Assembly (NCBI GenBank): GCA_963402885.1
Contig: OY727098.1
Coordinates: 496,001 to 560,000, forward strand
DNA: 64,000 nucleotides
Reading direction: 5' to 3'
From: Antedon bifida
Taxonomy: Eukaryota > Echinodermata > Crinoidea > Comatulida > Antedonidae
The notes under the pieces were generated by a model that ran no database searches, was not told the origin of the DNA, and saw only the letters and a program-made list of their open reading frames with translations. This document shows positions 265-53,250 of the stretch, one piece after another; the first letter of the stretch is position 1; the number at the start of each line of letters is the position of its first letter. A program made the translations under genes and the position numbers.

Positions 265-322
265 GGATGTTGCTTTATCCTATCAAGTGGAAACCGGTCA
301 TCTGGATCTTTTTCTAACATTC
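265..322 (-). CDS. STK11: STK11 coding exon 7 (last exon in window)
   Basis: 58 nt encoding [20 protein letters not shown], the end of the kinase domain. Acceptor TATCATAG|G, donor CATCC|GTAAGT. Human exon 7 is also 58 nt. The following exon should start with one base completing a Pro/Ser-type codon and then WF; I see no such exon in 1-264, so it lies outside. Confidence 0.94.
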
Positions 323-3300
323 CTATGATAAAAGGTAAAGGTTATCGTTTCAAGCTAAAATTATATGTAATGGTTATGAGTGCAATGAACAGAATATCTT
401 GAGTTGAAAGATGGACTAGGACATTCATCTGTTTCATAACACACATATTGTTCAAATAAACTTTTATTAAGTCACAGTTTTGATATTGAATAGAATGCCG
501 AGGCCGTGGAATAGAGCCAATATAGACTGCACACCCTTACGTGTTGGTTTTTGATTGTGCAATATTCATAGACCTACCTACTAAATGTTTAGAAAAATCC
601 CAACATACACCCTAACATGAGGATGAACCTAAATAATACACAGCATGTGATATGTAATCAACTAATCAGATAACATACACATAGGTGTATTCATTAAAAA
701 CAATGTATGTATTTATTAAGTACTTGACCTACCATTTAATAGAGTGGTCAGTGGTTGTCCAGTGTCCTCAGGAACAGTGAAATTCCCTTTTCCAATATTT
801 TCAAATAGTTTATAGATATTGTCACCAGCGAATGGGTACTGACCAGTCGTAATGTTGAACCTGTGAGAAAAAAACAAAATGTTCAGTTTTGGTCAGAATA
901 GTAAATAAAATGCTAGCTACATTTTGTATTTAACTGGACTAGAAATGGCCCCTTTATTAGAGGCATTTTCCATTGTATGACTGCAATAACCACAAGATTT
1001 TATCTTAAGAAATAGTGTCTTTAATATAACATTTTATTTCATTTGTAAGAAATATAATTGAGGCATTGCATGTCATTAAAAGTTTTATTTTGAGTATCCA
1101 TTTCTTATTTTACATAGTTTTACTGTACAAACATTTTTAACAAGAGCTCATTGTAAATTAAAACAAATGATTTTGACAAGATTTTAAGTGTTGAACTTGG
1201 CTTTTACACCTGACTATAGGTAATTCTTATCACACATTACTTTTGTTAAGATTTGTAAACACATATATGGGTAGTCATTGAAGGCAGCAGTAAATACAAA
1301 ACACAAAAACCTTTTAAAACATCTTTAAATTGGAACATTAGGGTTTCCTAAAATTAGGGCTCTTAATAAACCATAGTTTATTATAACTGAAACACTAGGC
1401 TTCTGCACATGCAAAGTTTATAGTCAGAAAAACCTAACTGTATCTTAAACTGGCATATATACATTCTTTAAATTGTCATTTGTTGAAAATAAACTTCTCT
1501 TAAAACAGACACAGTGTAGCTTGTGGATATAATATGTTAGGGATATGCTTACAATGTGATTCCAGATGACCAGATATCTACTTTAAATCCAGAGAAAAAC
1601 TCATTGCCATTCGCAATCTCTGGTGGTTGAAAAGCAGGGGATCCCTGACTGGTACGACATGTATCATCCTTAGTAAACTGGTCTAAGGCCTACAAAAATA
1701 ACACATTATGTGAATGTATGGACATTGTATTAAGCAGATCACTATTCATTCAGCTCCATCAACTAGAAATTTAAATTGTACCACACACAAGTTATTTGCA
1801 ATTTGCGGAAAGTCTTTTGTCTAAAAAGACTGTATAAGGAAATAAAAAGCAGAAAAACAAACTAAGCAAAATATACATTGCATAATAGTTTCTTTATTTT
1901 TATAACAAAGGTGTTTATTTCCGAGAAGGCATTTCCACATAAATATTTTTACATATAGCCTATTATTTATTTTATATATATAACCATGTTTATAAAAAAT
2001 ATGACATATTTTATAAATAATAACTTACTTCAGCCACACCAAAATCAGTTATTTTCAAGGTTCCGTCGGTGGTCAACAAAAGATTGCCTGGTTTTATATC
2101 CTTGTGAATTATACCCCTGCTATGTAAATAGTCTAGTCCATCAACTAACTGTACAAAATACCTGAATGAATAATAATACAGATAGGTTAAAAGTCTAATA
2201 TGCATGTATTCTTGGTTATAAAACATACTGTCAGTTAGTATTTAAATATACTTAATTAGGACAATGGTGATTAGACTGAAGTGTATTAATGAAGGATGAC
2301 AAGTCAAAGCCATAAGAAAATTATGTAGATAGTTCAGTCCTGATAATATCTAATGTTCGATTTAGTACAGGTCCACAGGCCTGTACAGCCCTGTCTACAC
2401 TATCAAACTTTATGTGATGTGCCCATATATAGATATGGTGATGTCATATCACTACCATATTTGAACATACTACTACCATATTTGGGCACATCACACTTTT
2501 TTGTGATGATGACGAAACATTAATAAGAAGATGATGATGTTCCTGTAATGGTGTTGTTGATGATCTTGATGAAGATAATACTAATGGTAGGCTACAAGTT
2601 AAAGAAGGAAAACAAGATCTTACAGTACTTTGAAAAGAATGCAGGAAAGGCCTTAGAAATCATTAATGAAATGGCCATTCTCACCAGCAAAGTTACATTA
2701 GAAAACAATATCTTACTCACCCATGTGCCTGCCATATTGGTAGCCTCTTATTACCTGAACTTTCCAAAAGCTCTTGAATGTTACCTACACAATATTCCAT
2801 AACTATATACGTATGAATCATTAAGGAAAAAACAACACAAAATATTACTGAACTGTCATTTGGATAGGGCTATTTATTGCAGCATATATATTCTAGATAT
2901 CAAACTTGTCACAGCCTACTATTACTGTCAAGATGCAATAAAGTAGAACCCCTTTTGGACCCAAGAAATGCCCTATGAATAGGGGTTGGTCAATACATAA
3001 ATTTCTCCTTGTTCAGTTAATACAAAGGTGTCCCCTTAATAGAGGTTTCGCCAGAATAGGGATAACCTAAAGGACAGGTTTTACTGTATGGCCTACCTAA
3101 CTAGATGACATTACTAATGATTATCTCCGCCACGGAGGTTATTTGTTATAGATTTGACAATTAAAATTATTGGTGATGACCAAAAAAATTAAACCAGCCC
3201 TAAAGCAACAGAAACATTGACAAAAAAGGTTTTGCTATATTCAGTAAAGTTTATACATAATATTTTTAATATGTTTATAACCTTGTGATTTTACAAATTG

Positions 3301-6300
3301 CATTATGAGATGATTGTTGTAAATTGTACAAGCTTACCAGTCATAGACATGATAATGGGATATATCGGAAGAATTATCATTTTATTGGCTTCCCAATATC
3401 TGGCAGCAAATGTTGCTACTATAATTGTTATAGATTTGCAGATGGGATTAGAGTGGGAGGCAATTAACGTGACGAAAGTGGAAACGATTTCTGCAAGATA
3501 TACAGTACTAGTACACGGCAATAAATATTTGCTTTACTTCGTATAAAAAACATTTGTGTTAATAAAGTGGTTTTAATAAATCAACAATTTATTCAATATA
3601 CCGTGATACGATTGAGTATAGTCCCAGATTACAAAATTTGGCAAAATTGCAGGGGTGGGATTATATTACTGGATTGTGTTAACAATAGATTTACCACAGA
3701 CTTACAGTATGTTCAAATTTATCCTAAATTAGAGAGGGATTAATACTCATACGATAAAGAGGAAACCCAGTTAAGTAGTATACATTACAAGCATGAAATC
3801 AATAGTAATGGAGGGTAAATAATAATAAACATGCTTAGTGTGGCATGGATCAATTTTTCTCCATTGTAATAGTGGATTAATAGCAATAAAGATTTATGAA
3901 TACCGTTCCATACAAAAGCATGATCAAACTGAATGAACAGGAGTTGTTGATATCAGTAGACAGACAATCTAGAACATCTACAACACTGAAAACTAGAGTA
4001 AACACTAAATCAGATTTTTCTTTTTTCTGCTGCAATAGTTGATAACATATTATATTATATATTGTATGGAAAAGCTTTCAGGTTTGATCCCTTAAGAATC
4101 TTTTGATAAAATATAGTAAAATTGGATACAAATATTTAATATAATGTACAACGACTCGCAGTCTATTGTAAATGAGTAAATGGTTGGAAAATAGTATTTT
4201 AGGAAGGGCAAGGTAGTGTGGAAAGGAACTGGTCACCCTAACACATTATGCACAGCCTTACAGCTCCCTCAGCTCAGAATGAATACGGAACTCAGCTTTA
4301 CTACATAAAGATTTTAAATCCAACTCAATACATATAATGTGGTAAATGTTACACTTTACAGTCCCACATTAAAATTTATTAATAATAAAGCAGTAAAAAG
4401 GATATATTTTTTGTTTCTCCTCATTGTGAAGAACATCTACTAGGTGGATAACGTTTATATGGTGCAATCGACGTAGTAATTTGATTTCTCTGTGAAAAAA
4501 AACACAAAAACAAATAGATGAATACATAATAATTTTAATGTTCAATTTATATAGCGCAACATGCAGGGTGTCTCTAAGTGCTGAACAATCAAAAGAAAAT
4601 GTAAAAAGCACAAAAATACATACTCCATGCTAAATGATTAAACAATAACAATGTGTATTTAATGTAAATGGTAACCATTGTTTATTCCCATTGCTGGAAC
4701 TACTCCAAGAGGAAAAGGAAATAACACTTAGTATTACTACTAAGATTCCATGGAAATTGGCTGTCTTTCCCATTATGAATCGCAGTATTATTTACTGTTA
4801 TGGATTTCAGTATGTATGAATGGAATGTAATTTTAACGTAATGCTAGTCACTCGTTCAATCATATTTCAAATTAGCATTAGCAGCAAATATTCATGTACA
4901 GCAGGCTACTCTTCAAACATACAGTAAACCTAATAATTTAGAGGGAAGAAAAGTAATGATTTTTATGGAATAAAGTTAACTTTATTTGTCTCCAGAATAT
5001 TTGTCAGACGGCCTTGCAGCATTTGAAGATTTTAAACAAATAGTTTGTTTGTTATTATTTACTTATACTGGGCGACTCTTCTGTCAAAGACTGGTTTCCC
5101 CAAGGAACCAGTTATGATCAGTGGCTGTGATCTACTAGTACACCGGGGTAACCCCCTACTCGTCTCGAAAGATGTACTAGGTTCTTTAAAGTGCACATGA
5201 GCTGGATGTGTACACTGGACCGACGGTTTATAGTCCTTATCCGAGAAGACTCGTTCTACCACCAGAACCATGGAGTGAGTGAGCCTCGAAAACCTTGTCA
5301 ATGCGTAATTATGGTTCCACTATCCTAACCAGTCGGCCACCCACTCACTAGCCCACTATTATTTTTAAACCACTACCAAAGTTTTAGACTTATTTCTGGT
5401 ATAGTGTGTACTATGTATTATTAAGGATCCTAACTTAAAACCAGACTATTGTTTGGTGTAAAGTGCCATGGCCTTGCGATGTGAGAAATAAACAGGTTTT
5501 GTTGAACACAGTGTAAATAAATAAACTCCTTTTCCTTAGCAACTTCCAAATAAATTTCAAAATAATGATTATACAAATATTATGCAACCGGTATAATTTC
5601 AACAATTCATGATTGTATAATATTTTTAACTCTATTTAAAAAAAAATTATATTGAGCAATATGGTCCATATTTGGGAGAGGGATATATCCTAGGATGGGC
5701 TTATATACAAGTCACAGACAGTATATGCAAACAACCCAGAAAAATGTTTCATCAGATTATTTGCCTTTGCCACTTAAATTTATAACATTTATTTCAATGA
5801 TAATTCAGCACAAATGATAGACTTAAATCATTGAGAAACACATACTATACTATTATAATATAATATAATCTGTAAAGGCCAGAGATATAAAATATTACGA
5901 TTTGCCTACATATTCACCAATTCAATAAAAAACATGTAATAATATGCATTAATTCATTTAATATGTCACACTCCTCCTCACAGACAGAGAACATTACGTG
6001 ACCATAATTTTTGCCATTAATATAATCATATTCAACGTCATCAACAGATTGCTGACCAGTGAGAACTACCAGCTTGCTGCGACAATTTCACAATCACAGT
6101 TCACAGCAGCGTGTATTTCATCTACACTGGACAACCATAAACAAACGAGTATTAATGATTACATATATCAGTTCCATTGCTTAATTAAAAAATTCCTATT
6201 TTCACAAATGATGTCAACAGAAATAAGTAAGAAAAATGTGTGCATAATTATAAACACACATTATATCAATATTTAACTTGAAATGGACAACTGGTTCTGG

Positions 6301-9300
6301 TTCAGGTAACCGGTATAAAGGGTCCAATCGAACGTCAATGTTTCGTTTTCACGCGGCTACGCGCATATTGATTGGCGCATAAAACGAAACATTGATGTTC
6401 GATTCGCCGGACCGGAACCGTGCCGGAACAGGTGTGAAAGACCCTTAATACTGAACTGTTGAATAATGTAATATTTATTTTTAATAGCTTTAATCTACAA
6501 ATATTTTATTCGAGTCCCTGACACAAAAACAAATTGTTTAAATGAAAAATTGATATGTGAATATAGTAAAGCTATGTTAATTGCGAACAAAAATTCTCCC
6601 GGCGCTAAACTAAATTATGTTGTAAATTAAATTCTTGTTCTGTTGATTGATTGCAAAGTAAGGACTGGTTGTGTTTCTAGATGACCATGAAAGACTCCAG
6701 TATCTATAATTACAACATGATTGCTTGATACTTCTATCCTCAATGCTAATCAAAATTAAACTAATGATTTCCAATGGTCATCATCTCCAAAAACACACTA
6801 CATCTCAATGACACTAAATACATACTGTACAATTTAACATGGTTCTGGTGGTAAAGTAGTCTTCTTCTGGACCGTACCGTAGGTCCAGTGTACACATTTA
6901 GCTCATGTGCAATTTAAAGAACCTAGTACTGTACATCTATCAAGATGAGTAGGGGATACCCCGATGTACTACTAGAGTAGTAGGCTACACACACAGCCAC
7001 TGCCACTCTCTTAGGGAGACCAGTCTTTGACTAAAGAGGTCACCCAGTAAAGAAATAAAGAATAAATATAATATATAAATAAATTTGACATACAGTAAAA
7101 TATGACTATGATTTCATTTATTATTATATTACTTGTTTACATAATAAAATTGTTACTTTTCATACTACAAAAATATTACATTATTATACATTTTTTTATA
7201 TCCAGTTAATTTTATTTTTATTTCCTGTGAATAATAAATTGACTCTCGTTCTGACTGCCAGTTTATTGTTGGTATCTGTTCGCCCACTCTATTATAAAAT
7301 GCCTTATAAATAATTAGCTAATTCAAAATTACTTTAATTTTCATTTTAAATTTAAAATACACATAAACATATTTCTTTTCAGACCTGGCAACAAATAAAT
7401 CATAATATAATATTACAAATATGAAAAAGCAGAGCAAAAAAATAGTAATGTGATAAATTTTAAAATAAAAAAACATCCATTGCTAAATTGACATTTCATC
7501 ATTTTTGCATTGAATTTTCCTATTTATTATTATTTATTATTTATTATCCTAATTATATTAATTGCGTAATCCAGCTTTATTTTCTATATCAAGGGGAATA
7601 TTACTAAAATGGTTTTGTTAATCGTCTGCCTAAGTTATACCACTCACTGTGAAAAGTTGATGGTTCTGTTGATTTTTTGTTTATTCTTTTATTATAATTG
7701 CTTGTTTCCGTCATCAATTTTTGTCTAATGTTGATTTTTGCATATATTATAATTATATTTTATGTCTTTCAACCATGTTAATGGTGACGTATGGTCACTT
7801 TAGGGTGATGATGAAATAAAAATAAAACAAAAATAAAAAATCAGCTGTTACAGACTAAGCTTTGAGGAAAGAATTGTTGGTGAATGTTTTAAAACTATCT
7901 ATTCTAGGATTTAGTGGTTTGTGGTACTTTTTTCTAGAACAAAGACAACTTCACCATAATATAATATATTAGTAATCAAATAGAATTACAGTAATTGTCG
8001 GACCATGCCAAACATAATCCTCATGTAATGAGTCAGCGTTCATGTTCTAACCACACTTACTATGGGCTTAGGCCTAGCTGATGAAACACCGGCATATGTT
8101 TCAAATGAGTGTAATATCAATCTAAGAGTTCATAGATTTAAAAACTGAAGTATGAACAGAAATTCACAAATTTAAGGGAAATATAGAAATCATTTACACA
8201 CAAATCAAAAGTGGTGTTGGCAGTCTATGAGTGCTGTATACCTGAAAAACCAACAATAGCCTATTCTTCCTGAAGAACGATATAACTCGAAAAGTAGAAA
8301 ATTCATTAAATACACTACTCTCTATAGTACAGAATTATCTAATTAGACATTTCAAGTTTCAAGAGTTTTTACCATGGAGTATGCAAGTGTCAACAGAATC
8401 TATATTTATAAAGCTTCATAATAGATATATAAAGCAGGTGGGTAGGATTGAAATTATAAAAAGGTCGCAAGTTTAGAAGATCAGTTAGATGATTCCCATT
8501 CAGACATTGATTAATTCATTATTTAACATTCAACAAGAGTAGGAAAGTGCAAATTGTGTATGCTTTGGGCATTTTTGTAGTGTAGCTATACTGACTTACA
8601 TAATCAAATTTTAAGGAGAAAAATTATACTGTAAAATGTCAAAGATACTGTAGGAAAGCACAAGTACAGAATGCTGATTTATAAGGGTTAACAGAGGTCA
8701 TACTAGAGAAGAAAGTTAAAAATACAATTACAAGTACATACATTATAACACACCTGATTGGTTAATTTTGTACCACATGTCGTTAAATATCTAAGTTATA
8801 TTGAACAGTATAAGTTCCATTCACCCTCTATTAACTAGAGGGTGAACTCGCTTCGCTCGTTCCCCCTCTAGGAAGTGTAAACGATGGTTCTAGGAATGAT
8901 AATTGTTGTATTCGATTGGGAACTTTCGTTGTCAACGTAAAGATTCGTTGAGTACTTTTTGTATTCGAATTGTAAATTTGTGCTCAACAGAAAGTCATTC
9001 GAATAGAAAACGTTGACAACGAAAGCTTTTTCGTTAAGAACAATCTCAACGCTCAAAATACTCCGTTAAAGAAGTACTCAACGGAAAAACTGTACTCAAT
9101 GGTGAAAGTCTAAATCGAATACGACAAATGACTCAGGTAAAAAGGTTTTAGAATGACGTTTTCGGTTGGTTACCATTCCTGCCTAGGAAGTTATATTTTT
9201 GAGATATTTGTTTGTGTTTTTTTTTTTCAATTCTTCATCCAACAGCCATGGCCAATTACAGGATGTCTTAAACAGCAACATTTCATAGTACAGGCCAGTG

Positions 9301-12300
9301 GATTTTGGAGGCAATATGGACCAGGATCTTAATTTTGGATCACTTTTTAATTATTTTATAATTTTAGGACGTACGTCAAAACTAAAGACGAATCTTTTTG
9401 ATTCTTGATCCTTTTATGTTTTTACTCCTTTCACTGGTTGCAACTCTTCAAACTTGCTCTTGTTTCTGTACATACAATGCAGTATTATTAATATGTATTA
9501 TTAACGTATCTATCAATATTAACACTATGGTACCTGTAATCGCTGTTAACATATTAAATCTAAAATATTAAGAGCTTTCGAATTTAATGTGACAGAATTA
9601 ACTTTGACGGAATATTTGATTATAACTGGTTGAAATGCTATTGTGTTGGTAATAAAGAATGTAGGGCACATTTTACACCGCTTAATTCAGGTGTGCCAGA
9701 TACTCTAGGAAGCATGATTTGATGAATGTGAGGCCAGAACAGTGTAGCAATCACTCCCATAGGATACAAGGTGTCTGAGCTGGTTCTACATTATTTAAAA
9801 CATGTTACCAAGGAAACACATATCAGTGCATTTGTTTCCAAAGGGTAATTGGTGATACTGAGAAATGACATTTAGAACACATTCAAATCTAAAAATTGAC
9901 ATTTTAAAAATACAATGCAAATAAGCAGTCATTCATAATTACATTCTTTCTACAGTAGAGAATACTAATAATATTATAATATAAATCTACAGTGTAGCAT
10001 CTTACTGGTGGTCTGTTGCATATTATAATTTACTAAAACTGAATAGTTTAAATAGATGAGAAATTGTTAATAAATATTTTTTAGTATATTAATATTCTTA
10101 TTAAATAATTAAAATCATAATATGAAGAACAATTATTTATAAAAACAGTCAGTTTTCTGTATAAAGGCTCAGAAAATAATCAAAAAGAGTATATAAAAAT
10201 AAAACGATGATATTAACGATGATTTTTTTATTGATTATTCAATTGATCATTACGTCAATTGATTAATAAGTAATTAATCTTACTAACTATACTGACTCAC
10301 CCTGACATATACGTAATCCCATCTCAAAAATCATCCATGTGACTCGCATTTACTCGGTAATAATCCCACCCTGAGATATAATCCCATCCCAAAAATTATC
10401 AATGTGAGCATATGCAAATTCCCTACAATATGGTCATCACAATAAACAACCTGTCTGGATGGTCATTATGCACATTAAATGAAAGTAAAAAAAAAGCAAC
10501 CATTTGTAATTTTAGCTAGTTAAATAATAATGTATAAGCATCCATTATTCTCTGACTGTTGATAATTCATAAACAGTCATAATGCTCTGACAGATAATAG
10601 CAAGAATTGATTAAATCAGTTTTCTTGTACCTTAATAACTGCATAGTTATTCAGGAAGTCATTGAAAAGGAAGTCATTGAAAAGCAATTAATGGGTTTAC
10701 TGTACAGGAGCTTCTCAATTCAATAGCAATTTGAAATATAAAATGATACCAAGGAAGGCTTGGAAAAGAGATAACTTAAGCTTTCCTAATCTAGTCAAAA
10801 TCTTTCGAAGTATAAGCCAGGAAACTACCTATAGGAACGTACCTAATTTCCGGACATGCATCGGTGAGATGTACTAGCTACCGGTTGTTCCCACCCTTTC
10901 TTTTTTGTTTAGAACTATTATATGTTCTAAAAAAGTCTGCGTACACTATTGCAAGAAAGAATGCATGTGAACTTCTATAAAATTTGGGAGAGAGGTTTTT
11001 GAGATCCTGCTGTATATTGTAGGGTGTCCACTCAGGTTTCTGGACTTCAGGTGTGTGATCTTTCATCACTATGTAGTATGAATACGAACTGTATGATATT
11101 AGTTACTATTATTAAATATTAAATATCCGAGACCGGCAGGAATATGAAACTTAAGATAAAATGCTTCTTGAATGACAAGTTGAAAGTTTATTACATAAAA
11201 AATATGAATATCTGTTTCGAAAGACTGGCTTCCAACAACCAATGACTGCCCTTTCTTTTCACTCTTAAAACCAATTGATATGTTTACTTTTTATGTTTTA
11301 TTGGTAGGCATTGCATCAGAGTACATATATAATATGTTTATTGCGCCTTATCATAAAATCTCATGGCCTATTATACAAATGTGGACGTGGTTTGCACTTT
11401 TCAACTACATGCTTCTCCCTAGGGTCACATCACGTCATTGCAGCCAATAGTGGTCTCCCTCTCAAGATAGTAGTAGCCCCATCTCTTTGAACTCGTCTTG
11501 AAAGATGTTCAGGTTCTTTAAAGTATACACAAACATACACATACCAGAACCATGGAGTGAGTGAACCTCAAACCCTTACCAATATCATCAGTTAAGGTTA
11601 AACTATCTTAACTGCTCAGCCATTAACTAATACTGATGATAAGCAAAACAGAACCTCAATACAGATTAGATATTGAAACATTGATTTTGTTTTGATAAAC
11701 AGTACAGTACCTACAAATTTCTTGCAAATTATTAAATTCGCTTTTGCAATGTAAAAATAAAATAAAAATATTAATTATTTATCAACATTCGTTCAGCTGT
11801 CAACTTTTGTTTTAGTAATTTTTAAAATTCTGTATCATTTACAGGTGTGCATTGCAAAACATTTAAATATACTGAAATTTGATACTGAATATTTTGGATA
11901 TTTGAACGATGGAAAAATAATTAACTTTATAAATAATTAAAAACCAACTCTATTACAAATCACTGAAGATTTATATATTTTTTATATGAAATAAAGTATC
12001 TCTTTCTTATTTTGGATAACTAGAGATCAGAGCCTGAGAAAGACATGATCACCAAGACTACAAATAAACTACACAAACCAATAGTGGTGTTAGTAGACTA
12101 TGATGAGTGCTAGCTTACCTGGATAAACCAACAATAGCCCATGCTCTCCAGAGGAAGGGCTTAGATACGAAAGTAAAAAGTTCCAACATACCCACATGAG
12201 GGCATGTATCTAAGCCCTCCCTCTGGAGAGCACAGGCTATTGTCGGTTTATCCAGGTAAGCTAGGCACGAAATAGACTTAATGTGTGAAATTGTGAAAGT

Positions 12301-15300
12301 ATTTTATGTAATTACTGTACAGTAAACTAGAGAGTAATGGCAATGAGGGACTTCTTTATGGCTGCTGGATCGGTTTAAAAAATGAATGATTTAAATATTA
12401 AAAATAAAATATTTTGAAGAACCACATAACATTACAGAAACCACCCACAATGGTATGGTACAGTAGTCTATTGGATAAACTGCCTTCTTTTGGTTTGAAA
12501 TTGGTAAATAATTAAAAAGAATATGAATTAAAATAGGCAATGTTTCATATCATGTTTGAAATACCTTTAAACACAACATACAAAAACCCAGGGTTGGCTG
12601 TGTATACAAAAGGATGTAATAGCAGTAGTATCCTGTACAAGACAATGAGGTAACCTGATCCAGGGGCCAAAATGAGGAGGTAACCTGATCCAGGGGCCAA
12701 ATTGAGATAATAAACACAACAACAACATTGCAAGAAAGCCAGTGTTATTGTTTACACAACAGGTCAGTTCTCTCCTATGTATATTTGCTTATTAAATATC
12801 ATATCATAGCATGATTGATAATTCTATTATCAATTAAACAAGGCCAGGTTAATAATATTAAAGTTCTTGATCATGATTTGTAAACATTTCTTCTTGAGCA
12901 CTTTGTGGATATGTGCGCTTTATAAATCTTATTATCTTATCGTATCTATAGGGCCTACTAATAATGTACTTTATTATTGAGAGTTATTGAAATAAAAAGT
13001 TCAGCCCTTGTAGCAGAAAATAATAAAAGGGTAGCATTATTGTTTTTCTCCGCGTAAATGTACAAATCGTACAAATAAATTCACATAGTGGAAATACAAC
13101 CTTACAGTAGCTAGCTTATTCCATTAATGTAGTAGAGTAGCATGCAATGTCTACTGAACAGTGGATGCTATAAAGATTAGCATAGATTTTATGGGATACT
13201 GATGATAGTAAAACAGTACAAAGACAAATATTTTTAAATAGACTTTGCAAGATTACATTTATGTAGGAACATGGGCCATTGATGATCTAGAGTTTGGCTA
13301 GGCCATGAACTATGTTTAGTGACAATTCTAGGATCCAGTGCCTACTCTACTAGGTAGGAGGAAGCATATAAACATGAAAAATTAACATTAATAAATGTTA
13401 AATTGAGTACAGTATTACCTAAGAAAGCTTTACAAGAAAAGGTCTTTAAAATCAATAAATGTTTTCGTAAATGGATTATGTAACAGGTTTATGTGTTATC
13501 GATAGGTGAAAATCATGCGGAATACAATCTTGAGTTTCAATGATAAGAAACATCCTTTCTAATAAATATTGACTGTTTTAACTGGGTCAGCAAAATAGTT
13601 AAGTTTTCTCGTTGGCTGCACAATTTACCCCCAGGGCTTGTCACATGACTTGTAATAATATAATGTCAGTAACCTCAGCGTTTAACAGTTGGCATTTAAA
13701 TACATTATATCAGTTTGACCATGGAGAAATATTAGTAATGGTATGTAAACATTATGAAAAAAATTATTATCATATTTCATGACAATTGTGATACACCACC
13801 AAAAGATATTTTGAGATTTAACTGAAAAAATAATTCATACACGAAATTATTATTCAATTATAAGTACATACAGAATAAGAATAGCTAAAAAAATACTGTA
13901 ATTTAGAAAAACTTTTACAAGTTTTTGTTGTAAACTATATATTTTTTAAACAATCTCATTTTTACTTTAAAGAAACGTAAATGTAAATTCAGTGATTCAC
14001 ATACTGTACTACTTTTAGTGATGGATACGGTTCATTGAACACACTTCCATTCTACCAGATATGAGGTGCTTACACATGGATCTGTTTAGACTTAAATCTA
14101 GGCTCACACTAGTCCGGTATACAAAGTCTAGTAAAAATTGCTTTAGGCTAGTCAAACTAACTTCCTACAATTAATTAGTCCGGTAGTCTAGTAACTAAAA
14201 ATTCAAATATCGAGTCATTTTTAAATACAGTATAAATGGACGTGGCATGTACCAATAATTTATATAATTTAAAATGGATGCCATACGTATTAAAATTCAC
14301 TGTTTGCTGTACCATAAGGATATTACATATGATATTTTATGCAATATTTTTATTTTATTTTAGTGTACTTACAGATATTATTGGGTTTTTTTAAAGGGGT
14401 GTGAAATTCTAGATAGAAATGTCTGTTCCCAAAATGACATGCTTCATTTTTATATTTTGTGTAATATTCAAACAATAAACACTGACAACTATTTGTATCA
14501 AAACAAATATTATTTCTCCTTATATTTGCCAGTTATTAGCAAAAATAATGAATATGAATGAATACATTTATTCATCACATAATTAAACTATGTTATAAAG
14601 ATAAATAATGATGAAACCAGGAAGTACAGTATGTATGAGTGACACCCCAGATTGCATAATTAATATAGTTCAGTTTTCTTTTATAATATAATTACAAACT
14701 AAAACAACAATTTCCCTTAAAACTTTAAGCTAAGTATACAGTACTGTATAAATAGTTACTTAAAAAGGAAATCTATAAAAAAGCAAAATCTATTTGTATG
14801 TAATAACATTTTATTGATGTCAGCACTTTAATAAATTTATGATAAGCTGGTAATGACGGAAATTAAGCTATCTACTGCAATCATCTACAGCTAAAATAGA
14901 TTTGGTTCAAACGTTTAATGGACTCCAAGATATTTTATTTTACTGCAATAGGATAAATATAAAAGTTGTTCTGTTCCAGAATATGCTCATGCAACATGGA
15001 CGTTTCATCTCATTTGATAGGTGAAAAAAGACAATTGATTAATAAATTGAAAGTGCTAAAGGCAGATGCTGGATTAAGGAGGGAGGGGAAGTAAGGAGGA
15101 GAGGAATGGAGAGTAGTAGGATGATTGTGTGAGGAGGAATAAGGAGAGGAGGGAGGGGGAGTAAGGAGGGGAGAGAGGGAGAGTAGGAGGATGAGGCGAG
15201 ACGACTTGTTGGTACACCCCTTGATGTGTCAAAAAGTCCACAATCAATGCAAAAAAAGAGCTAGACAGATTCTGAAGGAGTAAGGAAAGGTGAATATGGC

Positions 15301-16160
15301 AAGTCAGCTGATTCATCATGATTACTGGAAAAATCAATAATCATTGCAAAAAGAGAGCTAACAACGGATTCAGAGGGGTGAAAGGCCGCTGGTTACCCAT
15401 TTGGGGATGCATGTGACTAGAATATTCATAACAGATTATAAATTATGCTAAGAATGGAAGTGAGTGGGAGGGGCAGGTGGGTTTCTTTATTGAAAATGTC
15501 TGCTTTGATCAACAACATTTCTTTAGAAATCAATAAAACCACTCATGTGGGAAAGTTATTTGCATGTTGTACTGTATTTTGGTTTTTACAAGAATTGCTT
15601 TTTTACACAAAAGCAAATTGTTCAATAGGAATAGGATATTTCCATACATACACCTACTGTACATACACCTACTGCACGCTGAAAGAAACTATTCAAAACA
15701 AAAAAATAATAATAATAAAATACAACAAAATTATATTTATTAAATCAATATTTCACAGTAATAATATTTTCAACTTTATATTGGAATGATGGATTCAGTA
15801 ACAATTAAAAAAAAATATTTGATTTCTATAGGCCTACCTCTGTACATTTTGATCTCCATTTGGAATTTTTCTTAATTTTCTTCTTTTCAAAATTTTAACG
15901 GCTCGCCTGCACAATGTCTCAGAATCTAATACTTCTTTTACTTTACCGTAAGAACCTTCCCCAAGCACATCACCCATCAGATATTTACCAACCATTTTAG
16001 CCTTCTTCCTCCGTGGTTGATAGATAATTTCTGCAGAGTCAACCCTGTGAATGAAGGGGAAGTCCACATCATCGTTCAGATAGGCAATGTGATCTACGCT
16101 GGGTGTAAACGGAGTGAAACTTTGATTCGTTTCCTCTATGTACATGTCTGCATCGACCAT
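265..16160 (-). CDS. STK11: STK11/LKB1 serine/threonine kinase, 5' seven coding exons (3' end off window)
   Basis: LKB1 is the master kinase that activates AMPK-family kinases, acting in a complex with STRAD and MO25. CDS = complement join of 15838-16160, 4406-4489, 2721-2810, 2029-2161, 1553-1689, 733-860 and 265-322: 953 nt, about 317 residues. Visible motifs are a basic PRRKKAK stretch (residues 49-55, where human LKB1 has its nuclear localisation signal), the glycine loop GEGSYGKV (67-74), catalytic lysine K89 in [16 protein letters not shown] (D187 catalytic), DFG (205-207) and [15 protein letters not shown] in the activation/P+1 region. All junctions join in phase. ATG 16160 is the first Met after an in-frame TAG upstream, with A at -3 and G at +4. 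The N terminus is about 11 residues longer than human. The C-terminal lobe end and regulatory tail would lie left of position 1. Identity is nearly certain; exact UTRs are unknown. Confidence 0.97.
733..860 (-). CDS. STK11: STK11 coding exon 6
   Basis: 128 nt encoding [20 protein letters not shown] and [20 protein letters not shown] of the kinase C-lobe. Acceptor TTTCTCACAG|G, donor AAATG|GTAGGT. The first base completes the TTG leucine codon begun in exon 5. Confidence 0.96.
1553..1689 (-). CDS. STK11: STK11 coding exon 5 (activation segment)
   Basis: 137 nt encoding [40 protein letters not shown] and SSGIT. Acceptor TTTTTGTAG|G, donor ACATT|GTAAGC. The activation segment [21 protein letters not shown] is the same as in human LKB1. 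Confidence 0.97.
2029..2161 (-). CDS. STK11: STK11 coding exon 4 (catalytic loop and DFG)
   Basis: 133 nt encoding [38 protein letters not shown] and DFGVAE. Acceptor TTCATTCAG|G, donor GCTGAA|GTAAGT. It carries the catalytic Asp (D187) and the metal-binding Asp (D205). The motif is DFG here; human LKB1 has DLG. Confidence 0.97.
2391..2505. mobile_element. MITE family A, copy 1 (right end truncated)
   Basis: Starts CTGTCTACACTATCAAACTT, followed by GTGATGTGCCCATATATAGA, CATATCACTACCATATTTG and GGGCACATCACACTTTTTTG. The right terminal repeat is lost. It lies in STK11 intron 3. Confidence 0.65.
2721..2810 (-). CDS. STK11: STK11 coding exon 3
   Basis: 90 nt encoding [20 protein letters not shown] and then [10 protein letters not shown], matching the human hinge segment ([30 protein letters not shown]). 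Preceded by an AC acceptor (TGATTCATAC|G) and followed by a normal donor, CATGG|GTGAGT. A conventional GT-AG gene finder would probably miss or misplace this exon. Confidence 0.95.
2811..4405 (-). other. STK11: STK11 intron 2: U12-type AT-AC intron
   Basis: Read on the minus strand, the intron begins ATATCCTTTTT (4405 downward), the U12 donor consensus. It ends in TTCCTTAATGATTCATAC (2828-2811), where TTCCTTAAT (2828-2820) matches the U12 branch consensus TTCCTTAAY. The branch A is about 10 nt before the terminal AC. There is no polypyrimidine-AG acceptor. Human STK11 intron 2 is a known AT-AC intron, so the splice class is conserved at the same position. Confidence 0.95.
2930..3092. repeat. 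Dispersed repeat copy 1 (AACCTCTATTAAGGGGACAC family)
   Basis: Reverse complement reads ACAGTAAAACCTGTCC then GCGAAACCTCTATTAAGGGG. A second copy with TACAGTAGAACCTCTATTAA lies at 30066-30215. Both contain inverted pieces of the same motif (TGTCCCTTAATAG against CTATTAAGGGGACA), so this is probably a small non-autonomous DNA transposon. Confidence 0.5.
4406..4489 (-). CDS. STK11: STK11 coding exon 2
   Basis: 84 nt encoding [20 protein letters not shown] and then HNEEKQK, the alpha-C/beta-4 region. The acceptor is TTTTTTCACAG|A. The exon ends at AAAAAT, directly before ATATCCTT, a U12-type donor, so no GT donor is needed. The length equals the human exon. Confidence 0.96.
5066..5345 (-). mobile_element. 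tRNA-derived SINE, copy 1
   Basis: On the minus strand the head reads GGTGGCCGACTGGTTAGGAT (A-box-like). About 45 nt later comes GGTTTTCGAGGCTC (B-box-like). Then follows a body with GGTTCTGGTGG, CCAGTGTACAC, CTTTAAAGAACCTAGTAC and ACGAGTAGGGGGTTACCCCG, ending GACAGAAGAGTCGCCCAG. Two further copies (6838-7050, 11412-11633) share the body. Retroposed, with no coding capacity. Confidence 0.7.
6328..6402. repeat. Fold-back hairpin element core
   Basis: TCGAACGTCAATGTTTCGTT at 6328 is the inverse of AACGAAACATTGATGTTCGA ending at 6402 (one mismatch over about 22 bp) around a GC-richer loop. Outer AAGGGTC (about 6318) and GACCCTTAATA (about 6438) may mark the ends of a larger MITE. Confidence 0.55.
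6838..7050 (+). mobile_element. tRNA-derived SINE, copy 2 (5'-truncated)
   Basis: Starts inside the family body at CATGGTTCTGGTGGTAAAGT. Keeps CCAGTGTACACATTTAGCTC, the AAAGAACCTAGTAC segment and AGTAGGGGATACCCCG, and ends TCACCCAGTAAAG followed by an A/T-rich tail. It lacks the tRNA-like head, consistent with 5' truncation of a retroposed copy. Confidence 0.65.
8212..8302. repeat. Partial copy of the 12.1-kb fold-back family
   Basis: Shares GGTGTTGGCAGTCTATGAGT, AACCAACAATAGCC and GAACGATATAACTCGAAAAGT with 12085-12185. The mirror arm is absent. Confidence 0.45.
8908..9125. repeat. Imperfect palindromic element
   Basis: ACTTTCGTTGTCAACGT near 8930 is inverted as CGTTGACAACGAAAGC near 9010. 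GTATTCGATT near 8910 is inverted as AATCGAATAC near 9113. Internal GTTGAGTAC words recur in both orientations. It looks like an old fold-back transposon; the boundaries are approximate. Confidence 0.4.
11412..11633 (-). mobile_element. tRNA-derived SINE, copy 3 (diverged)
   Basis: Minus-strand copy of the family: TTAAGATAGTTTAACC head remnant, GGTTTGAGGTTCACTCACTC B-box region, CCATGGTTCTGG and TTTAAAGAACCTGAACATCT. The centre is more diverged than in copy 1. Confidence 0.55.
12109..12265. mobile_element. Fold-back (palindromic) MITE
   Basis: A left arm starting GCTAGCTTACCTGGATAAAC and a right arm ending TTTATCCAGGTAAGCTAGG are inverted copies of about 60 bp, meeting near GATACGAAAGTAAAAAGTTC. 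The arms include CCAACAATAGCC and CTCTCCAGAGG. It would form a long hairpin if transcribed. Confidence 0.65.
12623..12704. repeat. Short tandem duplication
   Basis: GAGGTAACCTGATCCAGGGG followed by CCAAAATGAG is repeated twice (period about 31 bp). The short reading frame over it only reflects the repeat. Confidence 0.6.
15075..15200 (+). repeat. Purine-rich G/A tract
   Basis: About 120 bp of nearly uninterrupted GGAGG/GGGAGG/GAGAGG words in otherwise AT-rich intronic DNA, about 0.6 kb from STK11 exon 1. A homopurine strand of this kind can form triplex structures; no function is shown. Confidence 0.5.
15838..16160 (-). CDS. STK11: STK11 coding exon 1
   Basis: 323 nt encoding residues 1-107 plus two bases of codon 108. 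It contains the variable N terminus, the conserved [20 protein letters not shown] stretch, the ATP-binding glycine loop and the beta-3 lysine. The donor is GAG|GTAGGC (intron starts at 15837). It ends in phase 2 at the same codon context as human exon 1 (ANVKK in human, QNVQR here). Confidence 0.95.
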
Positions 16161-20212: not shown

Positions 20213-20756
20213 TCAAAGCGCCGACTCTATCTTACATATCACTTCATGACGAGAACATACATTATTGTTTGAAATCTGTTTGCCTATTGGTGGAAAAAGT
20301 GGTTCTAAAAAGTCAGTATCCGCCGAGAAACTGTCGTTACTGCTATACTGGTCTGTCTCGTGATAGTCTAGCCCTGGATTAGTGTTACAGTTCATCTCTG
20401 TTGACAGATGTGATAAAATAGGAGCAGAATATCCATGCTCTTGTGCAATACTTTGTTCATGTTCTAACATTATATTATACATTTCATAACTTGTTACTGG
20501 ACGGGGCATCTTAGGTTTCCAGGGATCGTTCCTAGAATATGGCACCGAATGATCAGTAGAATATGGTACCGAATGGTCAGTAGAATATGGCACCGAATGG
20601 TCAGTAGAATATGGTACCGAATGGTCAGTAGAATATGGTACCGAATGGTCAGTAGTTCTAGTTGTTAACGACCTGATTGTTGCTGTCGTTAAAAAAGGTG
20701 GTTTTGAAAGTGGAATTATTGGAGATCGATAATTACGAGCTCTTAAAGGCACAAAT
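20213..20756 (-). CDS. GPCR coding exon 3 (distal C-terminal tail with TDHSVPYS repeats)
   Basis: 544 nt after acceptor TTTTGTTTCAG|A; the first base completes an AGA codon in the same frame as exon 2. It encodes residues 469-649, ending ESAL-TGA at 20213. Five tandem TDHSVPYS units (about 504-543) arise from a 24-bp coding minisatellite. The rest is Ser/Pro/Asp-rich and probably disordered. Linkage to exon 2 rests on phase and proximity, not on homology. Confidence 0.7.
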
Positions 20757-23700
20757 CTGAAACAAAAGAAAACAAGAGTTATCATTTGTGTTTTCATTAC
20801 AAATACACTTTTGTTTTGCACTGAGATGACAATGACAAAACAGACGAATTATAACAAAATTCTAAACTTCCAGGACTCAATTACTGTTAGACGTCCTTGT
20901 ATAAAAATAGTATATTGAAATTATCAAACATTATAAATATTAACTTATTACTATATCATACTGATATAGAGATATTCAGACGGAAGAAAGTCAGAGAGAA
21001 ATTTAGAAGAAGAAATAGAAAAAAAGTACGAGATATATTTGAACATTCGGTTTTGCGACTTATTTTAAATTATGAAATTATCGAAATAATATTTTAGAAA
21101 AAAAGACTTTTTCTAAATGTTGTAATCAACACTAAAAGTCGCCATTTGCTACATTGCATTCATTATTATAATCATAATGTATTTTTATCAATTTTGTTTG
21201 TGGTCATTTCAAATACATCTCATGTAATAGACAGAAAATGAGCATAGAGAGATACTGACAAGAAGTCTGAGAAGTTCACAGGTCAAAGTTCACCTTTCAG
21301 GGGCATCCATTCTTGTTTGTATCTCTTGTATGGACAAACAGTCATCTTCTGACGACCCGAGTCTCTCACCGTCAGAAATGGAGGACAACTTATCCATGTT
21401 GTCCCCATTTTGATCATGTGATGTCCACAGTTTTGGGTCATGTACTCGAGTGTGAACCCACGTTTTATCCGTTTTGTAACGCGTCAAATCGTTTGATCCC
21501 GTCATAATACGACCGTTACGTCGAACAGAGTTGACGCTTACTACTTGACTGTTGCAATTTGGTAAGCTGCGTTCAAGCGAATCCATAGGAAACTCCATGC
21601 TGGGTCCATAAATTGTTCGTTCAGCTGTCGTTTCCAAATCACGTCGTTTTGGACAGCAGACTCGTTTACACGGACTACAGAAACACGAAAGGAATTGTCG
21701 ATGAAAAAATATATACATGTAGGGCACTGCGATTGGAAATGCTAACACAATGTTCAACGCGTACAAATCCTTTGAGTTATCCACTGGTTGACCTGTTGTA
21801 TTAGCAATTATACGCATCTGAAAAAAAAGCAAACACACTTCTATATTGCTTATCTCAAATCCAATACAAACTATACACAGATGGTTTTATTGTCACGCAG
21901 ATATTACAATAATTTATCATGAATAACGATTTAATATTTTTAAATCTATTCTTACACAGATGTCCCCTGGTTATATTTAAACATAGGTTCTGTTTGAATT
22001 GAATGCTATTCAAATATTATAAGCAAATATTAATAATATTCTATATGATTAGTAAATAACAAATTGTCACGAAGAAATATATAATGAAATAATGAAATAT
22101 AATGAATGCGTCTTGCTTTTCTATTTATAGGGACACATCCGGGACCCAACAACGTTTCCTCTTAATGTATCCTGACTGAATAAGGGTTATTTTATTTTAT
22201 TTATTTTATTATACAACATATTTATACAGGATTACACAATAGTAAAGAAAACATGTTTTGCATTGTGGTTATCCGTTAATTGCACATCGTTTCGTCTCCG
22301 TAGGCCTAAAGTAGTGGTGTCCCCGCATAGTTTATTTGTGACATTCTGATATACAAATAAATATATATAATTTTATACGGAAAATGGAAGATCATTGCAG
22401 GCCCATCCAGTATTATTGAAAATTGTTACAAGGAAAATGAAACCAGTTTGACATTTGTACATAGTTCATAGTAATAACTTAATAGCAAGTAGAGGTTTGT
22501 TTTTAAGAAGTCTAAAGTCTTGTATTATCGAGGGTCACTTTGTTCTGAACAGCTTCATCAGGTCGACTGTATTTATTTGTGCGAAATGTGAGCAATCCGT
22601 CACTTTCAGGACAATTGGTTAAATCTCATCGGAATAATTCCAAATACATCCAATTATCGTCTCTAATGTACAATAATTAGATACGTCTTCATAGTAATAA
22701 TGAGTCACTCAAAAAACCATATACTCTATGGTATGCTGACTTAAGTCCGATGCTTAAAGTCACTTTCTTAGAATTGTGTTTGGTGACAAATATTTGTTGG
22801 ATTGATTGACTTTATACTTGGTAATTTAATTTAACGGTAATGCGCGTGCGTCATTATGGTTTAGATGTATTTTGTAAACAGATTCAATGACGTAATTATA
22901 TCATCTTATTTTAGTGTTTTTAGTTATCAAAATATTAATAATAATTACTATATATTAAAACTGTATATGAAGGATCAAGTGTTATTACTTTATTGTGATA
23001 ATGCAAATGTAATACGGTAATACATGCCTGTCTACACTATCAAACTAGTTTGACAAAAAAGTGTGATGTGCCCAAATATGGTAGTAATATGCCCACATAT
23101 GGTAGTGATATGACATCATCATGTCAATATATGGGCACATCACACTTTTTTGTCACATAAAGTGTGATAGTGTAGACAGAGCTTAATACTATGTCAAGCG
23201 CTTTACACACAAAATGATCCATTAAATATCCTAAGATAGCCACACAAAAAATGAAGAAAAGCAGAGGAACCATTTACATCGCCCTAGCACTTTGAAGCTC
23301 CCACGAGAACTCGCAGGAACATAATCCGCAAAAGCTCGAGTGAAAATGGCATCTGTCTATCTATCCTACCAAAATAAGTAAAACGATGTTGCTTAAGACT
23401 TTATAAAATTGATTGATGCTGCCTCTTTAATAACTTGTGACAGATCATTCCAAAGACGAGCAGAAAAATGATCTGTTGCCATAGAAAACAGTTGCCGGTT
23501 TTGAAACATTAAGTTTATTTTTTTGTAGATGATCTTAATGACCTAAGAGTATGGTTTGATATCAATGTATGATGGGGAAGTTGAGTTCAAACTCTTGTAA
23601 TTAGTCAGCAGCATCAATGATGTGATAACGATATGAACGATGACGAGGGATACGGGTAATGGTAGGGATGGATACGATCAGGGTTAGGGCACACTGACCT

Positions 23701-26700: not shown

Positions 26701-29700
26701 ACAAAGAGATTAAGTATTTATTTAATAGCTATAGCCAATAGATTCAACAATTTATAAACTTTTAAGGGCACCTAATATAAGTGGATTGAATGGGTTATAA
26801 AGAGGTAAAACAAGGTCGTATTGATGCTGATATTGAGCTTCTTATTTGCTCTCCGTAGGCTTAGGTTAATTAATTCAAAAGTGATCCGGATTTTGTTCTT
26901 GAGTGCCATGGGCACGTTGTATCCTATTTAAAGCAATTAGCAGGCATAATATTCTGTATTTACTTTTGGATTTCTAGCATAATGTGTATTTGTTTTCCGG
27001 GTAGATTGTGCTGTTGTATCTTGTTTGTTATTTCACTTTAGAGGGCCAGGCCAGTGCCTACATCTACTCATACTGTAACATAAAATAAATTCATTTCCTT
27101 CCAAAGATGTTTAATGAAATCTTTCTTGTTACGCGAAGGAAAAGTGAAAAAACGTTGAAAGTCACCCAACGTTTCGTGCGTTGTCAACACACTTTCTAAA
27201 GGTTTTCACATTTCCTTCACGTAACAAGACAAATTTAATTCAAAAACATACTCATACTACACTTATGACTCCTAAACAATTAGACCTAAACTCTCATATC
27301 CAACACATAATTTGATGAATGACAAAGGATTATTACATTGGTGACGATAAACAGTAAAAATATAGGAATGATGGAAAATATTATTGTGTGAACTATAGTT
27401 AAAATCCATTACATTAAACATAAAAGGAGACCCTTTACCATGTTGATTTAGACCTATACATAGAAAAACTCCATGTTATAATATAGCTTTTTCAATTGGA
27501 TGTGTTAAGTATAATATGAATTGTAAAATATCTCTTTTGTCTTGGATGGTGTTTCTTGAATGCAAGCCTATTTTAAATTTTAGATTATTATAATTTCTTC
27601 AAAGAAAGCTTAATTAGTAGTTAATTACTCTAGCAATTAAACAAGATACTTGACACAAATATTCAATTGGATAAAATTAGTTTATTGTAACTAATTAATT
27701 CTTCAAGATCCGTTCATTCTGTATATTACAACGCTATGTTATCATACAATTACATGAAACAGTTGGTGTACCCGCGTCACATGACATCTGTTTAACAGCA
27801 TGTGCCGGACCACAGGCCTAATGTTAAAGTTTACATAATTTGACAGGATTTTTACACAATATGATGGTCTAAATATTATTATCTTTAAATCGTATTCTTT
27901 AGTATTATTTTATGTAGGCACTTTCGGCACAAGCTCTCCTTTTTTAAAACAGTGGCGCCATCATTTTTTTCTGTAGGCCTATATTGTAAGAAATTATATT
28001 TATTTGATTGACTGATTTAAGGAGATAAATACATTTTATTTAGTCTACTGTTATAGTATGATAAATATTGCCCTTTTATTTGTCATCATCTTTTTAACTT
28101 CATTATTATCGTCAACATTGCCTATTATTTTCGTCTTATTTCCATCAACATCTCATACTTTTCCCTCTTCTTTGCAATATCATCGTCTTTTTCTTTCCCC
28201 TGCATTTCCAAATCCATTATCTCTACTCGAATGATAATATACTGACTTTCTCTGACACACGTTAGGTTTATATATCGGTGCAATGTCAATATCATATCCA
28301 GTTGTCGACATTATGGTAAATGGGAAAACGTCGAAAGTTAATATTCTTGCTAAGAATTGTAAATGCATTAGGACAAAACTTGAAATAAATAATTAGAAAA
28401 TGTACATTGATTTGAATGAAGCTACGATATAATTCTCTAGTTAAACAATATCGTGGAGATTACTATTATAGTGGACATTTACTTGTTATTTGAATATAGT
28501 GAACATTATTTTGCTGTTTCGATGTAGTGGAAATTACTGTATAGTGTCATACTGATGTTCTCGTAATGTAATGGTATGTTACGGTATTATACCTACAGTT
28601 TATTTAAAAAATGACAGTACTGATTCATTTTAATGTAGTGTTAATACTGTTATTTTTATATAGTTATGTAATTACTGTGTTATTTCAATGTAGTTGACTA
28701 TACTGTGTTATTTCAATATAGTGACATTACTGTTATATAGTTATGTAATTACTGTGTTATTTCAATGTAGTTGACTATACTGTGTTATTTCATTGTAGTT
28801 GACTATACTGTGTTATTTCATTGTAGTTGACTATACTGTGTTATTTCATTGTAGTTGACTATACTGTGTTATTTCAATGTAGTTGACTATACTGTGTTAT
28901 TTCATTGTAGTTGACTATACTGTGTTATTTCATTGTAGTTGACTATACTGTGTTATTTCATTGTAGTTGACTATACTGTGTTATTTCATTGTAGTTGACT
29001 ATACTGTGTTATTTCATTGTAGTTGACTATACTGTGTTATTTCATTGTAGTTGACTATACTGTGTTATTTCAATGTATTATTTCAATGTAGTTGACTATA
29101 CTGTGTTATTTCAATGTAGTTGACTATACTGTGTTATTTCAATGTAGTTGACTATACTGTGTTATTTCAATGTAGTTGACTATACTGTGTTATTTCAATG
29201 TAGTTGACTATACTGTGTTATTTCAATGTAGTTGACTATACTGTGTTATTTCATTGTAGTTGACTATACTGTGTTATTTCAATGTAGTTGACTATACTGT
29301 GTTATTTCAATGTAGTTGACTATACTGTGTTATTTCAATGTAGTTGACTATACTGTGTTATTTCATTGTAGTTGACTATACTGTGTTATTTCATTCGTTG
29401 ACTATACTGTGTTATTTCAATATAGTGACATTAATGATGATTTCTAGTAGCATGCATAATGCATACCGTACAATATTTATTTCGCATAATTGTATTGTAA
29501 AACAAACGGTACTATACCGAAGGGCATGGCTTTCATGTTCATTATGTAACATACTGATAGTGTACCGTATCGGATCCTCTATCATTAAAACAAACGGTAC
29601 TATACCGAAGGGCATGGCTTTCATGTTCATTATGTAACATACTGATAGTGTACCGTATCGGATCCTCTATTATTAAAACATAATATAAATCATCTCTTGG

Positions 29701-31381: not shown

Positions 31382-32579
31382 CGCTATATCCTATATTCAG
31401 CCTATATCGATACAAAGGTTATCCGCTAGCGGTCATTTATTAGGAAAGAACGGTTTACGGACAAGGTAAAATATTCTGCAAAATTAAAACAAAATAATGT
31501 TAATGTTTGCATAACATGACTTGATATGTGTTATTGATTGTATTGCATATTTATGACTTATAAGTAGTAATACTATTATATGTGAATTCTAACAGAGTCA
31601 TCGTACGTAATATTTGGTAGGACTATTAAATAATACGCGGCAAATTTGTTTTGGATTTTTTGTTTGACATAACGACATATAATGGTTGTTATTGTTAATT
31701 ATAAATAGTAAGTATTTATTTAAAATGATTAGTTAAGATTCTTAATAACTAAACCATAATTAAAAACAAAACAGTAGAAAATTAGTGCATATTATGCTTA
31801 CAATATACTTTAGTGTGAATAGTAATTATTATTAATTATTATTTTTAATTTTTATATTTAATATAATCGCTATTCGCAAAATAATAATGAAATGAAATTT
31901 AGATAAATTATACGTTTATTCTCATACATACAGTCGTATAATAAAATTAATATTAATTATGAATATTCCAATCAACAATGTCTTTTTGAATAAATTAACT
32001 ATTATGGTAATATCAGCCATGAAACAAGATACAATGAAGCCTCCAGCGAAGGCTAACCCCTTATATAGTGTCGATATAATCATTGTCATTCTATAACAAA
32101 TCACTATCATTAATGACTTAAAATCGTTTCTACCCTCAGGGGAGAAAGTTCTTGTCAGGTTTTATGAATGTAATATTCTCTGTTTTGTTGTAACATAGTC
32201 ATTTGACAATTATAATGTTCTCCACTGGGAGTCATCTTACCACACAGAACCATTATTTTCACAGAATCCTGAGCAAACTATATTGTTTAAATATTAACAT
32301 TTATTATATAACATAAATATGATTTTAATGTCACCAGTTCAGTTAATTAAAGGTCATGTACCAAAACCAATTTGATGCCCTATTTTTGTTTTAAATTGCA
32401 ATGTTTTGGCAAATTTAACGATCACACGTCAGACTTGCAGCCTTCTGGTATAAATAACATGTTCTTCAGATGGAAATATTATGATTGAGATTCATGTTAC
32501 ATGATTTAAATAATTAAATGTGTTTCAGACAGTAGGAGTAATATACATATAATGTTAGATATAAACAGAGCTATTGTAG

Positions 32580-32810
32580 AGTAACCAGTGTTAGATTAAC
32601 CAGTGTTAGATTAACCAGTGTTAGATTAACCAGTGTTAGCTTAACCAGTGTTAGCTTAACCAGTGTTAGCTTAACCAGTGTTAGCTTAACCAGTGTTAGA
32701 TTAACCAGTGTTAGCTTAACCAGTGTTAGATAACCCAGTGTTAGATAACCCAGTGTTAGATTAACCAGTGTTAGTTTAACCAGTGTTAGTTTAACCAGAG
32801 CAGATAAATC
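32580..32810. repeat. 15-bp minisatellite
   Basis: Unit TTAACCAGTGTTAGA/C, about 14-15 near-perfect copies. The minus-strand frame over it reads as LVKLT/LVNLT repeats and is not a gene. Confidence 0.9.
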
Positions 32811-33250
32811 AGAGCTAGATAAATCAAAGAGCATATTAACCATAGAGATAAAGTAATCAAAGATCAGATTAACCAGTGTTGGTTTAACCAGAGCAGATAA
32901 ATCAAAGCTAGAACCAACGAGCTATATTAACCAGTGTTAGATTAGTAGATTAATTAGTGTTGGTTTAACCAGAACAGATAAATCAAAGCTAGAACCAACG
33001 AGCTATATTAACCAGTGTTAGATTAGTAGATTAACTAGTGTTGGTTTAACCAGAACAGATAAATCAAAGCTAGAACCAACGAGCTATATTAACCAGTGTT
33101 AGATTAACTAGTGTTAGTTTAACCAGAACTAGATAAATCAAAGCTAGATAAATCAAAGCTAGAACCAACGAGCTATATTAACCAGTGTTAGATTAGTAGA
33201 TTAACTAGTGTTGGTTTAACCAGAACTAGATAAATCAAAGCTAGATAAAC
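32811..33250. repeat. 81-bp higher-order repeat built from the 15-bp unit
   Basis: GGTTTAACCAGA starts at 32881, 32962 and 33043, then again with slippage further on. Each 81-bp unit joins ACAGATAAATCAAAGCTAGA, ACCAACGAGCTATATTAACC and a remnant AGTGTTAGATTAG of the 15-bp unit. It is contiguous with the simple array. Confidence 0.85.
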
Positions 33251-52170: not shown

Positions 52171-52324
52171 AAGCTCTGTCTACACTATTAAACCTTATGT
52201 GACAAAAATACGTGACGTGCCCATATATGAATACGATGACGTCATATCACTACCATATTTGGGCACATCACACTTTTTTGTCAAACTAGTTTGATAGTGT
52301 AGACCTATGTGTAGACAGAGCTTT
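52171..52324. mobile_element. MITE family A, copy 4
   Basis: AAGCTCTGTCTACACTATTA at the left and GTAGACAGAGCTTTAGG at the right. A short duplication near the right end repeats the GTGTAGAC word. The copies at 52171 and 53101 lie 0.8 kb apart between the arms of an inverted repeat. Confidence 0.8.
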
Positions 52325-53100
52325 AGGCCTTAATGCGCCTGAATAATAAATACGGTACTCACTGATAATGCGTCTTTGCGATACAAATATTATGATTCCA
52401 ATAAAAGGAGCGTATAAGTTCCAATTCTGAGAGAAGCTACCCAAAGTATTCCTTTAAACAGAAGTTGTTAGTTAAGCACAACGAGTTGGTAGGCTGAAAT
52501 GCAAATTATATTCCAAGCTTGCCTTCTTCGGACACAACTAAAGCTGCAGTAGTATTGTCAATACTGGCTGGAGTACTCTTCTCATGATTCTAATTTCAAG
52601 GCTGTCATCCACCTATTGACAGATAAACAATGTTCAAGTGTTTAATCAGTACCACAATGACGACTGTCCTAACCGTACCTCCTAAGTCGCTATCTTTCTC
52701 CACCTAATATACGATGAGACAAGCCATTTTCTTAAAAACTGTTAGCGCCTTACTATACAAGGAATATGATACCATCCTATTTATTATATATATAATATAC
52801 AATCAGTGCCAACCTTATTCATTATATAGAAACTAAAATCGAAACAGAACCCCGGTCATCGTATTGATGAAATGCAAATATAAGCAATACACCCGCACAC
52901 CTGTATTGATTTTTGTAATAAATGAACAACTAACATATGTCTTTGGACAGGTTTGTAATAGCTTCAGTTGATTAGTTATTTACGACGAGATACCTCAGTA
53001 CCTAATTTATTGATAAAATAAACCGATTACAATTAATAAAAGGTGATTTTCTTGAACGCAATTTTGTAATAATATGTAGTAGGCTTCTCTTTTTATCCTT

Positions 53101-53250
53101 AAGCTCTGCCTACACTATCAAACTTTATGTAACAAAAAAAATGTGCCCATATATGGATGTAATATCACTACCATATTTGGACTATCACTACCAATTTGGG
53201 TACATCACACTTTTTTTGTCAAACTAATTTGATAGTGTAGACATAGCTTT
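53101..53250. mobile_element. MITE family A, copy 5
   Basis: AAGCTCTGCCTACACTATCA at the left and TTGATAGTGTAGACATAGCT at the right. An internal partial duplication repeats ACTATCACTACCA / TATCACTACCATA. Confidence 0.8.

Follow-up and report, generated by a model that had tools for sequence, protein, structure and literature searches.

An AT-AC intron with U12-type signals at the position of human STK11 intron 2 in the crinoid Antedon bifida

The window, the whole 64-kb stretch of Antedon bifida DNA analysed here, carried an STK11/LKB1 orthologue on its minus strand, with seven of its coding exons present. Exon boundaries were set by eye, and the start codon was inferred by choosing the first in-frame ATG. 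Joined together, the seven exons comprised 953 nt and encoded 317 residues with no internal stop. The predicted product contained a protein kinase domain based on Pfam analysis, and its top match among solved structures was STK11 chain 8vsu_C (492.6 bits, residues 35-317), against 162.9 bits for the runner-up outside STK11. The remaining 3' exons would be located past the window start. The parts of the gene, all on the minus strand, are listed below in the order in which they are read.

15838..16160, minus strand: STK11 exon 1, coding part (323 nt, phase 2 end), start codon inferred
4490..15837, minus strand: STK11 intron 1, GT-AG, 11348 bp, U12 donor match 5/9
4406..4489, minus strand: STK11 exon 2, 84 nt
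2811..4405, minus strand: STK11 intron 2, AT-AC, 1595 bp, phase 2, with U12-type signals
2721..2810, minus strand: STK11 exon 3, 90 nt
2162..2720, minus strand: STK11 intron 3, GT-AG
2029..2161, minus strand: STK11 exon 4, 133 nt
1690..2028, minus strand: STK11 intron 4, GT-AG
1553..1689, minus strand: STK11 exon 5, 137 nt
861..1552, minus strand: STK11 intron 5, GT-AG
733..860, minus strand: STK11 exon 6, 128 nt
323..732, minus strand: STK11 intron 6, GT-AG
265..322, minus strand: STK11 exon 7, 58 nt

A contig scan for comparative STK11 loci returned 194 relatives; the 80 of them that were kept were bacterial by title, with 26-44% identity over the best segment, and were taken as ordinary bacterial kinases.

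The window also carried several features unrelated to this gene. A long exon of a rhodopsin-family GPCR was observed at 30488-31390 on the minus strand, with prostaglandin E2 receptor EP4 as its best solved-structure match (85.5 bits). The open reading frames at 21886-21290 and 20848-20213 (minus strand), for which no Pfam match was found at 0.001, may be later exons of that receptor; the second of them includes, in frame, a 24-bp tandem repeat at 20533-20655 (minus strand; 5.1 copies, 95%) that encodes a repeated DHSVPYST. An open frame of 597 codons at 38664-40457 (minus strand) contained a reverse transcriptase domain and was LINE-like. Copies of a dispersed repeat, about 60-160 bp long, were found in both orientations, among the matches listed at 2393-2504, 23028-23186, 52171-52304, 53099-53243 and 57732-57868, and one copy was located within STK11 intron 3. 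Minisatellites were located at 28673-29426, 32577-33263, 55868-56105 and 63229-63548, with units of 28 bp, 15 bp and longer, 48 bp and 20 bp. Across the whole window, no Rfam match was obtained at gathering thresholds, and no tRNA genes were identified by ARAGORN.

Intron 2 of STK11, which runs on the minus strand from its first base at 4405 to its last base at 2811, starts with AT and closes with TTCCTTAATGATTCATAC, ending in AC. Two signals were annotated within it.

4395..4405, minus strand: U12-type 5' splice site ATATCCTTTTT of STK11 intron 2
2820..2828, minus strand: U12-type branch site TTCCTTAAT of STK11 intron 2, motif match

The donor ATATCCTTT matched RTATCCTTT at 9/9 positions, with C rather than G at position +5, and the branch motif TTCCTTAAT matched TTCCTTRAY at 9/9 positions, with 9 nt from its end to the end of the intron. 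The candidate branch adenosines are located at positions -12 and -11 relative to exon 3, and 10 nt follow the second of them. The initial annotation, which had described an AT-AC intron with U12 signals at these exact coordinates and a branch site about 10 nt before the terminal AC, was confirmed. The published 5' splice site consensus of minor introns is (A/G)TATCCTTT, and their branch consensus is TCCTTAAC, located 10-20 nt before the 3' end with an optimum of 11-13 (PMC8199999). The only difference between TTCCTTAAT and this strict consensus is the last base, T for C, and the spacing from branch site to intron end (10-11 nt) falls near the lower limit of that range. Minor introns are also described as having no polypyrimidine tract (PMC8199999). 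The pyrimidine fraction before the 3' end of intron 2 was 0.70, a value that partly includes the branch motif, and fractions for the five GT-AG introns of the gene were 0.59-0.78, with intron 3 equal to intron 2 and introns 4-6 lower. The last-base T and the short spacing count against the U12 type, and the pyrimidine richness may do so; neither the spacing nor the pyrimidine content overrides the two full motif matches. The other five STK11 introns all start with GT, end with AG and have G at +5; their U12 donor matches reached just 2-5 of 9 positions and their best branch motifs at most 6/9. Full donor and branch matches therefore occurred together in only one of the six STK11 introns examined, intron 2.

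To judge these matches against chance, we compared their frequencies across the window. The donor 9-mer by itself is uninformative, since it occurs at chance-level frequency: ATATCCTTT was observed three times, against 1.5 on average in 40 simulated windows, and RTATCCTTT three times, against an average of 2.2 in 40 first-order Markov simulations. Besides the STK11 donor, ATATCCTTT occurred at 61958 (minus strand), a full U12-type donor match outside any known gene, and at 39862, within the reverse-transcriptase open reading frame 40457-38664. No 9/9 branch motif was found within 8 kb downstream of either site. Five 8/9 motifs were found downstream of each over the same distance, four of the five for 61958 and three of the five for 39862 being suitably spaced from an AC or AG. 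Motifs of this 8/9 grade are frequent, and three more were found downstream of 4405. A weak U12 intron might conceivably be present at 61958 (minus strand). At STK11 intron 2, the weight rests on the donor, the branch site and the AC jointly, at a homologous position. A 9/9 donor begins at 3 of the 14667 AT dinucleotides on both strands, and a 9/9 branch motif starts 16-24 nt upstream of 1 of the 7396 AC dinucleotides, both counts including the STK11 site. Multiplied for two preset positions, these frequencies give about 3e-8, and because the exon ends that carry both signals were fixed independently by homology, the joint match is hard to ascribe to chance.

The joined exons were consistent with this. 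The predicted 4406/2810 junction links the exon 2 end ...CAAAAAAT to the exon 3 start GTATATAG..., and the translation across it, ...HNEEKQK-M-YIVMEYC..., was STK11-like with no stop, in line with the in-frame joining of exons 2 and 3 that had been proposed initially. Reading through the unspliced intron led to a stop at codon 148. We further enumerated alternative GT-AG, GC-AG and AT-AC pairs. Donors were taken from the last 45 nt of exon 2 and roughly the first 120 nt of the intron, acceptors from the last 120 nt of the intron and roughly the first 60 nt of exon 3, and only in-frame, stop-free pairs were retained. Among the 18 pairs kept (10 AT-AC, 4 GT-AG and 4 GC-AG), only one, AT-AC 4405/2811, rebuilt the conserved KQKMYIVMEYC. 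The signals, position and phase, the intact joined frame and the status of this pair as the only one among those enumerated to rebuild the conserved protein are established.

Human STK11 intron 2 was reportedly described by Hastings et al. (2005) as an AT-AC intron that is mutated in Peutz-Jeghers syndrome. In Antedon bifida, the intron falls after 407 coding nt and interrupts the Met codon 136 (ATG) in phase 2, and Met136 aligns opposite Met141 of 8vsu_C, a chain of 449 residues. We take native STK11 to have 433 residues, which gives 8vsu_C an offset of 16, so that its Met141 corresponds to human Met125. The human intron interrupts the coding sequence at c.374/375, and the name given to its retention is p.(Met125Ilefs*140) (PMC12366057); codon and phase here thus match the human Met125 split by intron 2, with the offset resting on the assumed native length. 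Exons 3, 4 and 5 total 360 nt here, equal to human c.375 to c.735 (PMC12366057). The gene, codon, phase, minor-intron class and AT-AC termini are all shared between the two introns, whereas the length differs, at 1595 bp here and 823 bp in human (PMC12366057). In a minigene in human cells, mutating the A at c.375-10 abolished normal splicing (PMC12366057); compared with this required A at -10, the candidate branch adenosines here are nearby, at -12 and -11.

Based on the sequence, the region 4405-2811 (minus strand) is very probably the orthologue of human STK11 intron 2, inherited as a U12-dependent intron of the AT-AC subtype, a reading to which we assign a probability of about 0.95. The intron looks real and functional, and from these features we infer its actual splicing, its dependence on the minor spliceosome and its shared descent over an independent origin. 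In the minor spliceosome pathway, recognition by U11 and U12 is followed by U6atac/U4atac. Given the signals of the intron and general knowledge of its class, removal by the minor spliceosome, as in human, would be expected. U11 would base-pair at the donor and U12 at TTCCTTAAT, U6atac would then take the place of U11 at the donor, one of the two adenosines at -12/-11 would serve as the branch point, and exon 2 would be ligated to exon 3 after the terminal AC.

Among the alternatives, the AT-AC subtype could be of independent origin here, derived from a U12 intron with GT-AG ends that occupied this position. Subtype switching is known, with 36 U12DB clusters containing both subtypes (PMC2831892), but the AT-AC state is common to human and Antedon bifida, so that common ancestry requires no change, and we regard an independent origin as quite improbable. 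It is highly improbable that the major spliceosome uses GT-AG sites at the exon 2/3 junction and that the AT-AC signals are coincidental. The near-chance frequency of the donor 9-mer (3 in the window against 1.5-2.2 expected) would allow this, but the conserved KQKMYIVMEYC was lost in every enumerated pair other than AT-AC 4405/2811, the sole GT donor scoring at least 5/6 between about -60 and +300 was at +145, and coincidence would have to account for the joint match at preset positions given above. That the major (U2) spliceosome removes the intron despite its AT-AC termini, as in some sodium channel genes, is similarly hard to credit: AT-AC termini alone do not define the spliceosome (PMC2831892), but in sodium channel genes the AT-AC introns of U2 type have a G at +5 (PMC2831892), where STK11 intron 2 has C, and both the donor and the branch motif here match the U12 type at 9/9 positions.

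Rather than through inertia, the AT-AC termini of STK11 intron 2 might have been retained through selection, if slow removal limited by the minor spliceosome set LKB1 output across animals and a switch to GT-AG or U2 were selected against, an idea that we consider very unlikely. The initial annotation regarded retention of AT-AC termini over such a distance as notable, a view that published comparisons do not bear out, since sharing of subtype between fly and human is already in print. Among 19 U12 introns in fly, 16 have a U12 orthologue in human and all of these are of the human subtype, 15 of them with terminal dinucleotides identical to human; elsewhere in the same paper, fifteen fly U12 introns are said to have human orthologues (PMC2831892). 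The U12 AT-AC introns of KCMF1 and Epac/RAPGEF3, although in other genes, are likewise conserved between fruit fly and human in position, type and subtype (PMC2831892). AT-AC introns accounted for 5 of the 79 single-subtype clusters converting to U2 type, against 204 of 769 clusters overall (PMC2831892). According to the same 2010 paper, about 20% of human-invertebrate comparisons show a conserved U12 intron, and loss was heavy in the invertebrates that it covered, with the intron absent in 194 of the 267 vertebrate U12 genes having an invertebrate orthologue (PMC2831892). In the aligned genes of a 2023 survey, 127 minor introns were shared between human and acorn worm, 116 between human and sea slug, and 102 among all three; starfish minor intron densities were on par with vertebrates, and conservation of minor introns was slightly below that of major ones (PMC10639083). 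Retention of minor introns is thus frequent where lineages change slowly, though not universal, and AT-AC retention in STK11 here is not very surprising, as keeping over long distances is known from these published surveys. In the titles and main-text passages covered by a literature search, no treatment of STK11 intron 2 outside vertebrates was found.

The locus also bears on gene annotation. With exon 2 at 84 nt and exon 3 at 90 nt, skipping either or both keeps the frame: it was kept when exon 1 was joined to exon 4, and on loss of exon 2 or exon 3 alone. A gene finder restricted to GT-AG introns could therefore lose these exons silently. That automatic annotation misses STK11 exon 3 or mis-splices at this point, as suggested initially, is plausible, and some annotation pipelines are reported to have historically left minor introns unannotated (PMC10639083).

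The STK11 case leaves views on minor intron evolution unchanged. It adds one clear, disease-relevant human AT-AC intron that is found at the same codon and in the same phase in another animal, and STK11 intron 2 flags a place where gene models restricted to GT-AG could drop exons without a frameshift.
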